From Parcubacteria group bacterium (GTDB taxonomy: Bacteria; Patescibacteriota; Minisyncoccia; Phycocordibacterales; Zambryskibacteraceae): a stretch of DNA of 42,720 nucleotides. Position numbers and translations under genes: made by a program. Positions within the stretch are counted from its first letter, which is position 1; each line of letters starts with the position of its first letter. The notes under the pieces were generated by a model, which worked only from the letters and a program-made list of their open reading frames with translations, did no database searches and was not told the DNA's origin. Location of the stretch: NCBI GenBank assembly GCA_028286465.1, contig JAQBRN010000027.1, forward strand, positions 1 to 42,720, read 5' to 3'. Of this stretch, positions 5,977 through 22,163 are shown one piece after another.

Positions 5977-6717
5977 CGGAAGGAAGGATTTCCATAAAAG
6001 GACCGTGGCGTTGTCCGGAAGAGGTTTCCTGGCTCGGCGTTTGAGGATCTTCTCCGCATCGAGAGTCTTCCGCTGTCGCCGAAGGCCTTTGATAAATCCT
6101 TCGGCATCCTCATCGCAGGAATCAATGACGCCGTCCGTGCACACCATGACCCATCGAGGATTCTTCACGGTCTGGATCTCCGGTTCTCTGGAAAGGATGG
6201 GACCCAAGGACCTGTCTCCGAGAGAACGGCTCATTTGCAGGCCACTGTTCCCGAAGAATATGTACCGTCCGTCGCGCTCGGCCCCTCGAGCTTCGGCTGC
6301 TTCGAGTTCGGCTTTGTTGCTCGAGATGTTGTGTATGGGGCCTCGGTGGATCCTTCCTTTGTTGTCGACGATCACGATCGGGGAATCGCCGAGTACCGCA
6401 AGCGTCACTTCGTCCTTGTCTTCGAGAATGCAGGCGATAGAAAGGGTTGAGCCTGCATTGCAGTGCTCGGTGCGTCGGTTGAGCTCTTCGACGATCAATC
6501 GGAGCATGTTCTCGGTGGTTCCTTCTTTCTGGGCGAATCGAGAGACGAGCTCGTCGATGTCTTCGCTGCAGACCTCGGCGACCTCCTTACCGCCATGGCC
6601 GTCCATCAGGGCAAGAATCCATCCTCGGCGCAGCTCTCCATCGAGCTTGATGAATACGGCTCGATCCTCTTGGGCATCTCGGCCGCCCTGCTCACTGGCC
6701 CGACTGACTGTCGACAT
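5962..6717 (-). CDS. PP2C-family serine/threonine phosphatase
   Basis: LMDGHGGKEVAEVC, VLGDSPIVIVD, SRSLGDRSLGP, VCTDGVIDSC; GAGGAGATC ATG. Confidence 0.9.
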   Translation of the reverse strand: MSTVSRASEQGGRDAQEDRAVFIKLDGELRRGWILALMDGHGGKEVAEVCSEDIDELVSRFAQKEGTTENMLRLIVEELNRRTEHCNAGSTLSIACILEDKDEVTLAVLGDSPIVIVDNKGRIHRGPIHNISSNKAELEAAEARGAERDGRYIFFGNSGLQMSRSLGDRSLGPILSREPEIQTVKNPRWVMVCTDGVIDSCDEDAEGFIKGLRRQRKTLDAEKILKRRARKPLPDNATVLLWKSFLPNAET

Positions 6718-12150: not shown

Positions 12151-12268
12151 AGCCCGCCACTAGGTGACCCGAAGGCCTACACCGGTTTCCCGATGCAACG
12201 TCGTAAACGACCCTAATGACGGGGTTTCTGTTTACGACGCTTTGTTGCCATGCCAGTCCTTGCGGGCT
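12151..12268. repeat. Structured motif copy 2 (AGCCCGC ... TTGCCATGCCAGTCCTTGCGGGCT), enclosing a 10-bp inverted repeat
   Basis: AGCCCGC/GCGGGCT closing helix; internal CGTCGTAAAC (12199-12208)/GTTTACGACG (12230-12239); reverse-strand end followed by TTTT. Confidence 0.6.
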
Positions 12269-12353
12269 GGTTTAGGCTCTTTCAATTTACCACATATCTA
12301 CAGCACCAAGAAGAGGGGGTTGTAGGAACATTACACTCGTGTATACTTTATAT

Positions 12354-13536: not shown

Positions 13537-15103
13537 CGGTAGAGAGGGAATTGTTTATGCGCGAGTATCTAGCAAAAGCCAAGAAACTGATGGTTCAGGA
13601 CTTCAGAGTCAAGAGGGTAGATGTCTTGATAAGCTACGTTCGTTAGGCGTGCCTTACACTAGAAGTTTCCTCGACAGCTTCACTGGTGGAGGAGACTTTA
13701 TGAATCGTCCTGCCATGAAGGCTTTGCTTGAGTATATCGATGCTCACCCCAACAAGAGATATGTAGTGGTATTCGATGACTTGAAACGCTTCGCCCGCGA
13801 TGTACAGTTCCATCTTGCACTTAGGTCAACTCTCAGAGCAAGGAATGTGCTGGTCGAGTGTCTCAATTATAAATTCGATGACAGTCCTCATGGAAAATAC
13901 GTGGAAGTAATACTAGCCGGTCATGCAGAGCTCGAGAGGGATGAAAATAGACGTCAGGTGATGCAAAAAATGAGCGCTCGCTTAAAAGCAGGATACTGGC
14001 CTTTTGGTAGCAAGAAGGGGTATGAAATTAAAAAGGTTGCTGGTCATGGGAAACTCGCAGTTCCAAAAGAGCCAGAAGCTACTCTGCTGAAGACTGCCCT
14101 GGAAGGTTTCGCTTCGGGCAAGTTTCTCAGAAAGATAGACGCTTGTGAATATCTCGTGATGGAAGGTTTCTGGAAGAAACAGCACCCTTCTAAATACATT
14201 GATAGGTTTGCGACCATGTTAGAAGACCCTTTCTATGCTGGTTATATTGAGTATCTACACGAAGAATGGGATGTTGATAGATGTAAGGGTCAACATGAAC
14301 CGATTATTTCCATGGAAACCTTTGAGCTTAATCAGAAGCGTCTTGGTAAGAATGGAGTAACAAAGACTGTACGGGCTGATGCGTCCGAAGATTTCTCTCT
14401 CAGAGGCCTGTTAATTTGTGCTCATTGTGGCAAGCATCTTACTGCGGCTTGGCATAAGGGTGGGAAGTATCCGTATTACTTCTGCCAGAATGGCTACTGT
14501 ACTCATAAGAGAGAATACATACAGCGCGACCTGGTTGAAGAGAGTTTTAGAAAGCTGCTCGGTGCTCAAAAGATGAAACCTGAACTGAGGAGTTTGTTAG
14601 AAATAGTCTTTGAAAAGGTTTGGTATGAGGAAGTAGAGACTTTCGAAAAAGCACAGCGTGCTCTCCATAAGGAGAGGAAGGATATTGAAGCCAAGATAGC
14701 GCAACTCGCTGATAGCGCCGCTGAGACTGCTAACTTCGCTGTAAGGCAAGCCTATGAGAAGCGGATTCAAGTCTTCACCAAAGAGCTCGAGAAGCTTGAA
14801 GAACCTGTAGTGAAGGCTGACACCTCCATAATTTATCGAACCGCTTTCGATAAATCTGTGGCACTTCTAGAAAACCCAGTAGTTGCATGGGACAACCTGA
14901 ACTTCCTCGAGAAACAACAGCTCTTCTACTTCATCTTCCAAGAGAAAATACCCTACGACAAGAAAGAGGGTTATAGAACCAGCAATATACGAAGCACGGT
15001 AAGGTTATTTGAGGAGTTTGTTGGTACAAACTCCCACGATGTGGAGGTGGGGAGATTGAACTCCCGTGCACGAGGATACGCAGAACGGATCTACAAGGCA
15101 TAG
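13493..15103 (+). CDS. Large serine recombinase (resolvase + recombinase + zinc-ribbon domains)
   Basis: GIVYARVSSKSQETDGSGLQSQEGRCLDKL, FDDLKRFARD, LRGLLICAHCGKHLTAAWHKGGKYPYYFCQNGYC, C-terminal coiled coil. Confidence 0.95.
   Translation: MLKRNLKEISITSYDGREGIVYARVSSKSQETDGSGLQSQEGRCLDKLRSLGVPYTRSFLDSFTGGGDFMNRPAMKALLEYIDAHPNKRYVVVFDDLKRFARDVQFHLALRSTLRARNVLVECLNYKFDDSPHGKYVEVILAGHAELERDENRRQVMQKMSARLKAGYWPFGSKKGYEIKKVAGHGKLAVPKEPEATLLKTALEGFASGKFLRKIDACEYLVMEGFWKKQHPSKYIDRFATMLEDPFYAGYIEYLHEEWDVDRCKGQHEPIISMETFELNQKRLGKNGVTKTVRADASEDFSLRGLLICAHCGKHLTAAWHKGGKYPYYFCQNGYCTHKREYIQRDLVEESFRKLLGAQKMKPELRSLLEIVFEKVWYEEVETFEKAQRALHKERKDIEAKIAQLADSAAETANFAVRQAYEKRIQVFTKELEKLEEPVVKADTSIIYRTAFDKSVALLENPVVAWDNLNFLEKQQLFYFIFQEKIPYDKKEGYRTSNIRSTVRLFEEFVGTNSHDVEVGRLNSRARGYAERIYKA
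15013..15034. repeat. Perfect inverted repeat immediately 3' of tmRNA, inside the recombinase ORF
   Basis: GGAGTTTGT TGGT ACAAACTCC. Confidence 0.85.
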
Positions 15104-15432
15104 TTTCGCTTGAAGTTTAAATCATGTTGCTAAAAGCAAAACGAAACACAACATAATCGAGCTCTGATCTTAGCTTCTGAAGTGAGCAGCTAGAGAAGTG
15201 GAGTCCCGCAGATGAATCGCTTCGAACCTCGTGCCGGACGGCGAAGAGGGAAACGTTCGTTACCCGAGTTTAAGCTCTGATGGTAGCGAAAGCGAAGTCG
15301 TTCGACGCAAAATACGGCGAACGAATTGCCTGTGCAGTTTTGATTGCACGTAAAGGGTCTCACAGATTTAGGAGTTATGAGTGCTCCGCCTTGCGCGTAG
15401 AGCGCATGTCTCGTGTCGATACTGACACCCCC
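15042..15432 (-). ncRNA. ssrA: Transfer-messenger RNA (tmRNA)
   Basis: Reverse strand 5' GGGGGTGTCAGTATCGACACGAG...; 3' T-arm CGGGAGTTCAATCTCCC and acceptor CACCTCC-A pairing with GGGGGTG; adjacent to smpB; CCA not encoded. Confidence 0.9.
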
Positions 15433-19168: not shown

Positions 19169-21340
19169 TTATTCGAAATGGATCTTCGCTCCGGCCGCAT
19201 CGAGTCGCGCTTTGAGGAGCGGAAAGTGCAGAAGGTCGGGGTCATTTTCGATAATGTTCGTCGCTTCCTCACGGGCGGCCTCGACCATCTTCAGATTCTT
19301 GATAGCTTCCATGGCGAGGTCCGAGACTCCCCATTGCTTGCGTCCGTAGAGTTCTCCGGCGCCACGCTGCTTCAAGTCGAATTCGGCGAGTTCGAAGCCG
19401 CTTTTCGCAGTCTTCAGTGCTTTCAATCTTTCAACGGTTTTCTCGCTTGTGGTCTCGGCGAAGACGAAGCAGTACGGCTGGTGCGTACCTCTGAGGACGC
19501 GTCCCCGAAGCTGATGCAGCTGCGAGAGGCCATAGCGCTCGGCGCCCTCGATGAGGATGACGGATGCATTCGGCACGTTCACTCCGACTTCGACGACGGA
19601 CGTGGCCACTAAGATATCGATCTCTCCCTTGGTGAAGCGGGCCATCGTCTCTTCCTTATCCTTCGGCGTCATTTTCGAATGGAGAATGTCGATCTCGTAT
19701 TCGGGAAAGACCTTTTCCTTAAGTCGTTTCGCTTCTTCCTTCACGCTCTTTGCAAGGATCGCGCCTTCTTTATCGGGATCCGGTTCATTGATGCGCGGAC
19801 AGATGACATACATTTGTCGGCCGCTTGCGAGCTCGCGGCGCATGGCGTCGTACATGCCGGCACGCTTGTCCGGCGTCACGATCTCCGTGATGATCGGCTT
19901 TCTGCCCGCGGGCATCTGATCGAGGAGAGAAATGTCGAGGTCGCCGTAGAGGGTAAGAGCGAGCGTGCGGGGGATGGGTGTCGCAGTCATCGAAAGGAGA
20001 TGCGGAGTCGTCGCATCTTTCCCTGCGAGCTTTTGCCTCTGAGCCGTGCCGAAGCGATGCTGCTCGTCGATGATGGCCAGGGCAAGATGCTTGAACTTCA
20101 CCGACTTCTGGATAAGCGCATGCGTGCCGATAACGACCGATATCTCGCCGGACGCGACCCATTTCAATAATTGCGGGCGCGAGATCTGCGTCCAGCCGTT
20201 CGGATTGACCTTCGAAGGGAATTTCCTGACGGTCGTGCCCGTGATGAGGGCGATGTTGATGGGCAAAATACTGAAATACTTTATAAAGGATTCGAAATGC
20301 TGCTGGGCCAAGATCTCGGTCGGAACCATGTACGCGGTTTGGAGCGTGCCGAAGGTTTGGAGTTCTCCCTTGGCATTACGAGGGCGGGACGTGGTCACAG
20401 CGTAGGAAATAGCGGCTGCCACGGCGGTCTTTCCCGAACCAACATCGCCTTCAAGCAAGCGCGCCATGGGGTGCCCACGTTTGAAGTCTCCGAGGATCTG
20501 CTCGATCACCTTGAGCTGCGCCTCAGTCGCCTCGAAAGGGAAGTTGTTGATGAATTTGTTCAAGCTCTCCAGATCCTTTTCTATGACGAAGGCATCGCGC
20601 TTCTTGAATTCGTGCCTTGTTTTTTGCCGTTCGAGCTGGATGAAGAAGATTTCCTCGAAGGCGAAGCGCTTGCGTGCCGCTTCCGCATGTTCTTGCTTCT
20701 GCGGAGCGTGGATCCAGACAAGCGCGCTATGGAGCGTCGGCAAACTGTATTTCTTTAAAATGTCCTCGGGTATGGGGTCGACGAGGGTGTCGAGAATTCC
20801 GGAACCAAAGATGCTTTGAATCTTATGATAGATCCAGTTCGATGTCAGTCCGCGCGTTTCGGGATAGACCGGGTAGAGTGAGTGTTCTTCCACATCGCTT
20901 GCGAAAAGGGAATTGCCGACAGCAAGCGGGATCTTCGGCACGGCTTCGACTTTTGGATTGGAGAAATACAATTCCTCTTTTCTTTCACTGACTTTTCCTT
21001 CAACGCGTACGAACGATCCTTCGCCGAGCATCTTCGCCATGTAGGCCTGATGGAACCAGACGATCTTCATCCGGCCCGTTTCGTCCGCGACCCAGGCTTC
21101 CGACATGGGAATTCTCGACTTGTAGCCCTTGCTCGTTTTCAATCCGTTGATTTGTCCGAAGACGACGGCCTCGTCACCCTTTTTCAGGATTTCGATGTGC
21201 GTCACTTGAGCCGTGTCGCCGTAGCGCGCGGGGAAGTAGTAGAGAAGGTCTTCGACCGTGACGATCCCGAGCCGCTTCAGGGCGCTTGCCTGCAAAAAGT
21301 TCAAACGGGAGATGTCTGAGAGCTTATCACTTAATTTCAT
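19169..21340 (-). CDS. recG: ATP-dependent DNA helicase RecG
   Basis: LLEGDVGSGKTAVAAAIS, AIIDEQHRFGTAQRQKL, MTATPIPRTLALTLYGDLDIS, QLRGRVLRG. Confidence 0.97.
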   Translation of the reverse strand: MKLSDKLSDISRLNFLQASALKRLGIVTVEDLLYYFPARYGDTAQVTHIEILKKGDEAVVFGQINGLKTSKGYKSRIPMSEAWVADETGRMKIVWFHQAYMAKMLGEGSFVRVEGKVSERKEELYFSNPKVEAVPKIPLAVGNSLFASDVEEHSLYPVYPETRGLTSNWIYHKIQSIFGSGILDTLVDPIPEDILKKYSLPTLHSALVWIHAPQKQEHAEAARKRFAFEEIFFIQLERQKTRHEFKKRDAFVIEKDLESLNKFINNFPFEATEAQLKVIEQILGDFKRGHPMARLLEGDVGSGKTAVAAAISYAVTTSRPRNAKGELQTFGTLQTAYMVPTEILAQQHFESFIKYFSILPINIALITGTTVRKFPSKVNPNGWTQISRPQLLKWVASGEISVVIGTHALIQKSVKFKHLALAIIDEQHRFGTAQRQKLAGKDATTPHLLSMTATPIPRTLALTLYGDLDISLLDQMPAGRKPIITEIVTPDKRAGMYDAMRRELASGRQMYVICPRINEPDPDKEGAILAKSVKEEAKRLKEKVFPEYEIDILHSKMTPKDKEETMARFTKGEIDILVATSVVEVGVNVPNASVILIEGAERYGLSQLHQLRGRVLRGTHQPYCFVFAETTSEKTVERLKALKTAKSGFELAEFDLKQRGAGELYGRKQWGVSDLAMEAIKNLKMVEAAREEATNIIENDPDLLHFPLLKARLDAAGAKIHFE

Positions 21341-21370: not shown

Positions 21371-21398
21371 TTGACTTTAAAAGTAGTTGTGCTATACT
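21371..21398 (+). promoter_or_regulatory. Sigma70-type promoter of structured ncRNA
   Basis: TTGACT-16 nt-TATACT; predicted TSS ~21405. Confidence 0.75.
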
Positions 21399-21404
21399 AC
21401 AAAT

Positions 21405-21691
21405 GTATCGAGCAGAGGCAAGAGACGTTAGTCGTCGAGACCCCGAACGATACCTATGAGGGATTCCTGACCACCTCATATTGCTAATCGACATGGATAG
21501 ATTCCGAAGCTGGAATCGAGGTCACATGTGTCGGGCTCGCTCCGCAAGGGTCACAGTTGCGGTGAGCTCGGAGAGGTTATAGACCATGAGTCTAGGCGAC
21601 ACGCCGGCCCCTCCGAGCAAAGTTCTTTCGTAGCTTCGGCTACTGTTGTCATATTGCATGGCACTCAGCGCTCACCTTCGGGTCGAGCGCT
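21405..21691 (+). ncRNA. Unassigned structured non-coding RNA, pseudoknot-capable
   Basis: No ORF of 60 aa or more; multiple perfect helices: GTATCG/CGATAC, TATGAGG/CCTCATA, GATTCC/GGAATC, CCGCAA/TTGCGG, GGGCTC/GAGCTC, TAGAC/GTCTA, GTGTCG/CGACAC, CTCGGAG/CTCCGAG, GTAGC-TTCG-GCTAC; ends at AGCGCTC/GAGCGCT + T-rich tail. Confidence 0.7.
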
Positions 21692-21697
21692 TTCTGT

Positions 21698-21729
21698 TTA
21701 ATAAAAACCGCCCTTACTGCTGGGCGGCG
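21698..21729 (-). terminator. Terminator overlapping stop codon of small gene
   Basis: Reverse strand CCGCCC agcagtaa GGGCGG TTTTTATT. Confidence 0.8.
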
Positions 21730-21884
21730 AGAATGCGCTTGCTGTCCTGGGCCTTCACGTTGCGGCACGGATGCTTTCGGACGAAGTCGTGGGTCTTTTG
21801 CCGCCATTTCGGCATCGTCCATGTGCGGCTGCCTGACGAGCGCTGCTTCGGCGCAGCCTTCGGTGCGGCAGCTATAACGCTCAT
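21714..21884 (-). CDS. Tiny hypothetical protein (56 aa), paralogous to 21930..22163
   Basis: MSVIAAAPKAAPKQRSSGSRTWTMPKWRQKTHDFVRKHPCRNVKAQDSKRILAAQQ*; below track cutoff; terminator overlaps stop. Confidence 0.65.
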   Translation of the reverse strand: MSVIAAAPKAAPKQRSSGSRTWTMPKWRQKTHDFVRKHPCRNVKAQDSKRILAAQQ

Positions 21885-21929
21885 GCCCGCTTGAAGTGTG
21901 ATCGAATGCTACTTCATGTTGAAGGGAAC

Positions 21930-22163
21930 TCATGCAATGCGCCTCGCGGATTGGGGAGTGGTTGCTCTCGTCGCCATTGGGTGTTCGGAACGAAACTTCT
22001 CTATAATCTTCTTCCATTCGGCATCGGTCATCCACGGCTGGCGGACCCTCGAGGCCCTGAGGCATCTGTCGGCAAGACAAATGATGCGGTCGAACAGCGC
22101 ATCGGTAGTGAAGCCTGTCCGGTCTTCGCGCACATCGTGGCAGGGCATGCTGTCGCTCAACAA
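21930..22163 (-). CDS. Small hypothetical protein (start uncertain; TTG or internal ATG)
   Basis: ...VRQPWMTDAEWKKIIEKFRSEHPMATRATTPQSARRIA*; AAGGAGG near 5' end. Confidence 0.6.
   Translation of the reverse strand: MLSDSMPCHDVREDRTGFTTDALFDRIICLADRCLRASRVRQPWMTDAEWKKIIEKFRSEHPMATRATTPQSARRIA

Follow-up and report, generated by a model that had tools for sequence, protein, structure and literature searches.

Among stand-alone RNAs, the closest described systems are OLE, ROOL, and GOLLD, non-coding molecules of several hundred nucleotides with an elaborate fold, a poorly understood function, and a sporadic distribution (PMC12286853). ROOL and GOLLD sit in phages or prophages, often near tRNA islands (PMC12286853). 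The RNA gene described here lies in a 42,720-nucleotide stretch of Parcubacteria DNA, hereafter the window, and is predicted to resemble these systems in all of the general respects just listed. It is shorter, however, and no sequence or covariance-model match connects it to any of the three. We define the E1 RNAs by a hairpin, E1, carried within a promoter-to-terminator non-coding transcript, and predicted transcripts of this kind were found in four species. Unlike ROOL and GOLLD, E1 RNA loci have housekeeping neighbors where the neighbors could be identified. In the collections searched, the putative family has so far been found in only one Parcubacteria genus.

The promoter-RNA-terminator cassette occupies window positions 21371-21699, as checked letter by letter in a Parcubacteria-type genome of 0.73 Mb. 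It is bordered by recG on one side and by a small open reading frame (ORF) and mutY on the other, both on the minus strand, and no same-strand gene lies downstream. The features of the locus are as follows.

19169..21340, minus strand: recG, neighboring gene on the opposite strand
21371..21398, plus strand: sigma-70-type promoter TTGACT-16-TATACT (TTGACT at 21371, TATACT at 21398, spacing 16) with an extended -10 (TGC); direct reading, scan, and shuffles
21405..21691, plus strand: structured non-coding RNA body, from promoter start to terminator stem; fold z -2.8, homologous to the RNA at locus L036, no Rfam family
21405..21453, plus strand: E1 hairpin, with outer stem GTATCG/CGATAC (21405-10/21448-53), GAGG/CCCC, internal loop CAAGA/GAGA, and inner stem GACG/CGTC (21424-27/21433-36); stems by direct reading, covariance model R2 50.8 bits, E 3.4e-11
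21455..21480, plus strand: hairpin c, TATGAGG/CCTCATA (21455-61/21474-80); direct reading
21500..21517, plus strand: hairpin GATTCC/GGAATC (21500-05/21512-17); fold and direct reading
21528-21533 and 21597-21602, plus strand: crossing pair GTGTCG/CGACAC; read in the letters
21542..21562, plus strand: hairpin CCGCAA/TTGCGG (21542-47/21557-62); fold and direct reading
21566..21618, plus strand: helix f, GCTCGGAG/CTCCGAGC (21566-73/21611-18), enclosing the next hairpin; letters and alignment with L036
21580-84/21590-94, plus strand: hairpin TAGAC/GTCTA; direct reading
21621..21629, plus strand: conserved 3' element AGTTCTTTC, common to L036 and directly 3' of helix f; local alignment 36 versus shuffled maximum 29
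21630..21643, plus strand: UUCG-capped hairpin GTAGC-TTCG-GCTAC; direct reading
21667..21699, plus strand: intrinsic-terminator-like hairpin with a bulge (21667-21691), then TTTCTGTTT; direct reading

The original prediction, made from the letters of the window, had placed this promoter upstream of a transcription start near 21405. Our reading agreed with its coordinates and with the promoter, and the start site is plausible. The exact motif TTGACT-N15-18-TATACT occurs once in the window, with 0 occurrences expected in shuffles, and a TTGACA promoter lies at the equivalent position in all three relatives described below. Because almost identical promoters (TTGACTT-TGCTATACT) are found ahead of other genes in the order, this one looks like the lineage's standard strong promoter. 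The claim that the RNA has its own terminator stood in part: a hairpin (AGCGCTCACC-TTCG-GGT-C-GAGCGCT) and a tail (TTTCTGTTT) are present, but the hairpin is bulged, the T-run is broken, and a terminator scan of the window did not call a plus-strand terminator for the RNA. Clean terminators end the RNAs of the three relatives. On the minus strand, the small ORF has its terminator at 21707-21728, set back to back against the end of the RNA. Two neighboring small ORFs at 21700-22163 (minus strand) carry a C-x4-C ... W ... HP pattern that also occurs in the recG-adjacent small ORFs of three congeners (G004, G006, and G007). Of the two window ORFs, the RNA-proximal one seems to contain a one-base frameshift or a sequencing error, and the intact one lacks a Pfam match.

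The body was found to contain eight perfect local helices in addition to the terminator-like hairpin, in keeping with the predicted set of helices that included GTAGC-TTCG-GCTAC. The expected lack of a long ORF was also borne out, in that the ORFs within E1 RNAs are short and not conserved and none is convincingly ribosome bound. The window RNA folds at -110.6 kcal/mol, compared with -96.0 ± 5.3 in dinucleotide shuffles (z -2.8; 1 of 200 shuffles as good), and z-scores of all members range from -2.4 to -5.1. Since the fold of the opposite strand is about as good (z -2.9), folding energy alone is weak evidence and does not fix the strand, which is set by promoter, terminator, and homologs. A pseudoknot or switch had been proposed from the crossing pair. 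This proposal fared poorly: the pair is present in the letters, but no counterpart was found at the matching place in L036, and CGACAC has an alternative local hairpin, GGCG-ACA-CGCC. The 5' arm of hairpin c can likewise pair alternatively with 21625-21634; at the place of this hairpin, L036 has CCTTTGG/CCAAAGG. Another candidate pseudoknot, between the E1 loop and a downstream segment (TTAGT 21428/GCTAA 21483), could form in the window and also in species G007, where the letters differ; it was dropped because the other two RNAs offer no clear counterpart.

The Rfam search that the original prediction had proposed (cmscan, 4227 families, Rfam 15) returned nothing at gathering score for the window RNA. 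A looser scan, up to E = 10, gave only RAGATH-21 (E 6.9, 15 of 70 bits, across the terminator), and the E1 homologs were unmatched too. In line with the original prediction, the RNA could not be matched to tmRNA, SRP RNA, or RNase P RNA: the match to the RNase P model RF00010 is on another contig (C14), the tmRNA (RF00023) is located at window 15039-15432 (minus strand), and the SRP RNA models RF00169 and RF01854 do not match the window RNA. More broadly, RF00169 was negative in 41 genomes of the order (the window genome, G000, and 40 relatives) and RF01854 was negative in G000, with matches in control genomes; a possible divergence or loss of SRP RNA in this order would be worth its own study. 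Another stand-alone structured RNA of the same genome, LOOT (RF03000), lies at window 12166-12278 (minus strand; 69.8 bits, fold z -4.5). It differs from the E1 RNA in sequence, in its length of 113 nt, and in being recognized by Rfam, and no relation between the two was detected.

The window RNA was searched by blastn against sets of 61 and 397 genomes as well as phages and plasmids, and nothing significant came up except the RNA itself. One weak match (E 0.015) in congener G005 (L036) was judged real on inspection. It shares with the window RNA the promoter position, the arrangement GAGGCAWGAGACG-N5/6-CGTCGAGACCCCG, and a 3' block, CCTCSGARC..AGTTCTTTC. Outside E1, the two RNAs align with a score of 36, against a maximum of 29 in 100 shuffles, over a block of ∼90 nt at the 3' end. 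Helix f, read as GCTCGGAG/CTCCGAGC in the window and GTTCCGAG/CTCGGAAC in L036, shows two double changes that are compensatory, and every pair is kept. A third species, G007 (L073), came from a pattern scan of 85,462 species' genomes, and a fourth, G001 (L093), from a covariance model of the E1 hairpin, so that the homolog collection suggested at the outset yielded three further species with compensatory stem changes in E1. In the RNAs of G007 and G001, E1 is followed by a second shared block (score 35 versus shuffled maximum 29), and the remaining pairs among the four show no alignment beyond E1. The motif CCGTGAACAYTCCGG, common to G007 and G001, was uninformative elsewhere, where viral matches were not read individually. 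Other weak blast matches that were read turned out to be shared promoters, terminators, or coding sequence. The 45 pattern matches in the 85,462 species' genomes were judged to be chance apart from two Parcubacteria records, as were those in viral contigs (1 and 107), the best-looking of which lies inside a coding frame. No real relative was found in phages, plasmids, or viral contigs. With Rfam negative, homologs bearing compensatory changes, and transcription predicted, the description of an unassigned, structured, stand-alone non-coding RNA is supported.

E1 itself is a 41-nt hairpin, (stem)GAGG-CAWGA-GACG-loop-CGUC-GAGA-CCCC(stem), of the window species and three more species of its genus. 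The internal loop CAWGA/GAGA is of purine type and invariant except for W. Changes on both sides were seen in 3 of the 10 stem pairs, a level reached by 10 of 500 shuffles, while slid structures show no such change at all; the sample of four sequences is small; in the G001 copy, the usual A.C mismatch is replaced by U-A. E1 has the same orientation within its predicted transcript at 4 of 4 loci; three of the RNAs carry it close to the 5' end, the G007 RNA in its 3' half. The predicted transcripts are about 300, 575, 321, and 516 nt long (321-575 nt in the three relatives). Against the four-sequence model, members score 50-62 bits, a match that holds by construction, and nothing else in the 31 family genomes reaches 20 bits; G001 had been found independently at 25.5 bits before joining the model. 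Among 397 genomes of the order, only congeners matched. Within the genus, E1 was detected in 4 of 9 sampled species, the other 5 being without a detectable copy. Paralogs in the window genome were sought by model and pattern only.

Three familiar RNA elements were compared with E1. Like a k-turn, E1 has, at the level of its letters, a bulge of 3 nt (CAW) that precedes tandem G.A pairs on the inner stem. In k-turns, the C-stem on the unbulged strand adjoins the G.A pairs without a gap, whereas all four E1 sequences have two extra nucleotides (GA) at that point. Because of this extra GA opposite the bulge, E1 as read here is not a standard k-turn. The series CAUGA-stem-GAGA superficially resembles the CUGAUGA-stem-GAAA of the hammerhead core, but E1 is a two-way internal loop without a three-way junction or cleavage site, and no Rfam ribozyme matched. 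Mimicry of rRNA was rejected, the best match to E. coli rrn (9.9 bits) being at chance level.

The four E1 RNA loci are unrelated, and the flanking genes differ in all four species. The window RNA lies in the recG/mutY gap, the G001 RNA in the prfA-rpsB region, the G005 RNA between two genes without a Pfam match, and the G007 RNA between an RNase J-like and a transporter-like gene (names from reading translations). In G004, G006, and G007, a small CxxxxC-type ORF is directly next to recG with no RNA between them; therefore, either the window lineage acquired the cassette or repeated losses occurred. G001 has two tandem cassettes whose promoter and terminator flanks are 81% and 87% identical and whose bodies, of 291 and 516 nt, do not align, so that either the bodies were exchanged or they diverge far faster than the flanks. 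These tandem RNAs (L106, G001:C4:36000-55000) are on the minus strand, at contig positions of about 45.9-45.6 kb and 45.4-44.9 kb, and the first holds a 32-codon ORF with a Shine-Dalgarno-like AGAGG. In the recG-mutY gap of G003 (L109, G003:C13:8000-20000, about 6250-6530), a 279-nt non-coding candidate (z -4.5) has its own promoter and terminator and the same position as the window RNA, without E1.

The locus has its own promoter, a folded non-coding body, and E1 homologs in three congeners at differing loci, with E1 restricted to the genus in the collections searched; it is apparently a new RNA gene that evolves rapidly. Regulation of a neighbor in cis is unlikely, because no same-strand gene lies downstream and the flanking genes differ in the four species. 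Our leading interpretation, held tentatively and at somewhat below an even chance, is a stand-alone, trans-acting structured RNA gene whose product serves as a ribonucleoprotein (RNP) scaffold or decoy. On the model of OLE, 6S, or CsrB, the RNA would act in trans and not as a cis-regulator; the E1 purine loop (CAWGA/GAGA), whose adjoining stem ends in tandem G.A, would dock a protein or RNA common to the genus, and the remainder of the molecule would be a fast-changing scaffold. The pattern of E1, conserved in all four RNAs with an invariant loop and covarying stems in bodies that are mostly unalignable, fits a binding module. Counting against the scaffold or decoy reading are the shifted position of E1 in G007, unexpected for a single fixed architecture, the thin covariation among only four members, and the 5 of 9 species in which E1 was undetected.

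Another explanation could be that the sequence, transcribed or not, is functionless and folds by chance, as the modest z-score and the similar score of the opposite strand would allow. This is very improbable given that E1 is conserved between species (50-60 bits) and shows compensatory changes, and that a significant second block is shared with L036. The empty SRP scans of the order would favor a highly diverged housekeeping RNA, above all an SRP RNA. Such an RNA would be expected in every relative and in conserved form, whereas E1 was detected in 4 of 9 species and the body evolves more rapidly than the protein genes beside it. A complete SRP domain IV motif was not seen, and RNase P and tmRNA are already accounted for. 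The window RNA varies too much and occurs too rarely for the missing SRP RNA, an identity that we regard as highly improbable.

A base-pairing (antisense) small RNA acting on mRNAs, with E1 as a chaperone site, would also be a stand-alone gene with promoter and terminator, and rapid evolution is usual for such RNAs. At 300-575 nt and tightly folded, however, the E1 RNAs are larger and more structured than usual base-pairing RNAs, and conservation is highest in a structured internal loop rather than in a single-stranded seed, so we consider this explanation unlikely. Several features would suit a mobile or phage- or defense-derived cassette, with units gained, lost, duplicated, and given new bodies: E1 RNAs occupy unrelated sites in four species, the recG gap of three congeners lacks the cassette, and the G001 tandem units combine similar flanks with unrelated bodies. 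Among the immediate window neighbors, however, there is no transposase, integrase, or reverse transcriptase, flanking repeats of note are absent, and phages, plasmids, and viral contigs held no real relative. We therefore treat mobility as a possibility, though a rather improbable one.

Returning to the reading of E1 as a docking site on a trans-acting RNA, a bolder version, which we put forward as doubtful speculation, is a modular RNA gene system in which promoter and terminator flanks persist, the body is exchanged or remodeled, and the constant E1 would be a handle for a shared partner; its function would be species specific, and possibly conflict driven, in an ultrasmall lineage. Although candidate phyla radiation genomes are tiny, this genus retains RNA genes of 300-575 nt outside known families. 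From one species to the next, these RNAs change almost beyond recognition, but a single hairpin remains constant. E1 may serve as a probe for the whole genus, as bait in finding its binding partner, and as a means of testing whether RNAs of this kind are arms-race elements or housekeeping scaffolds.
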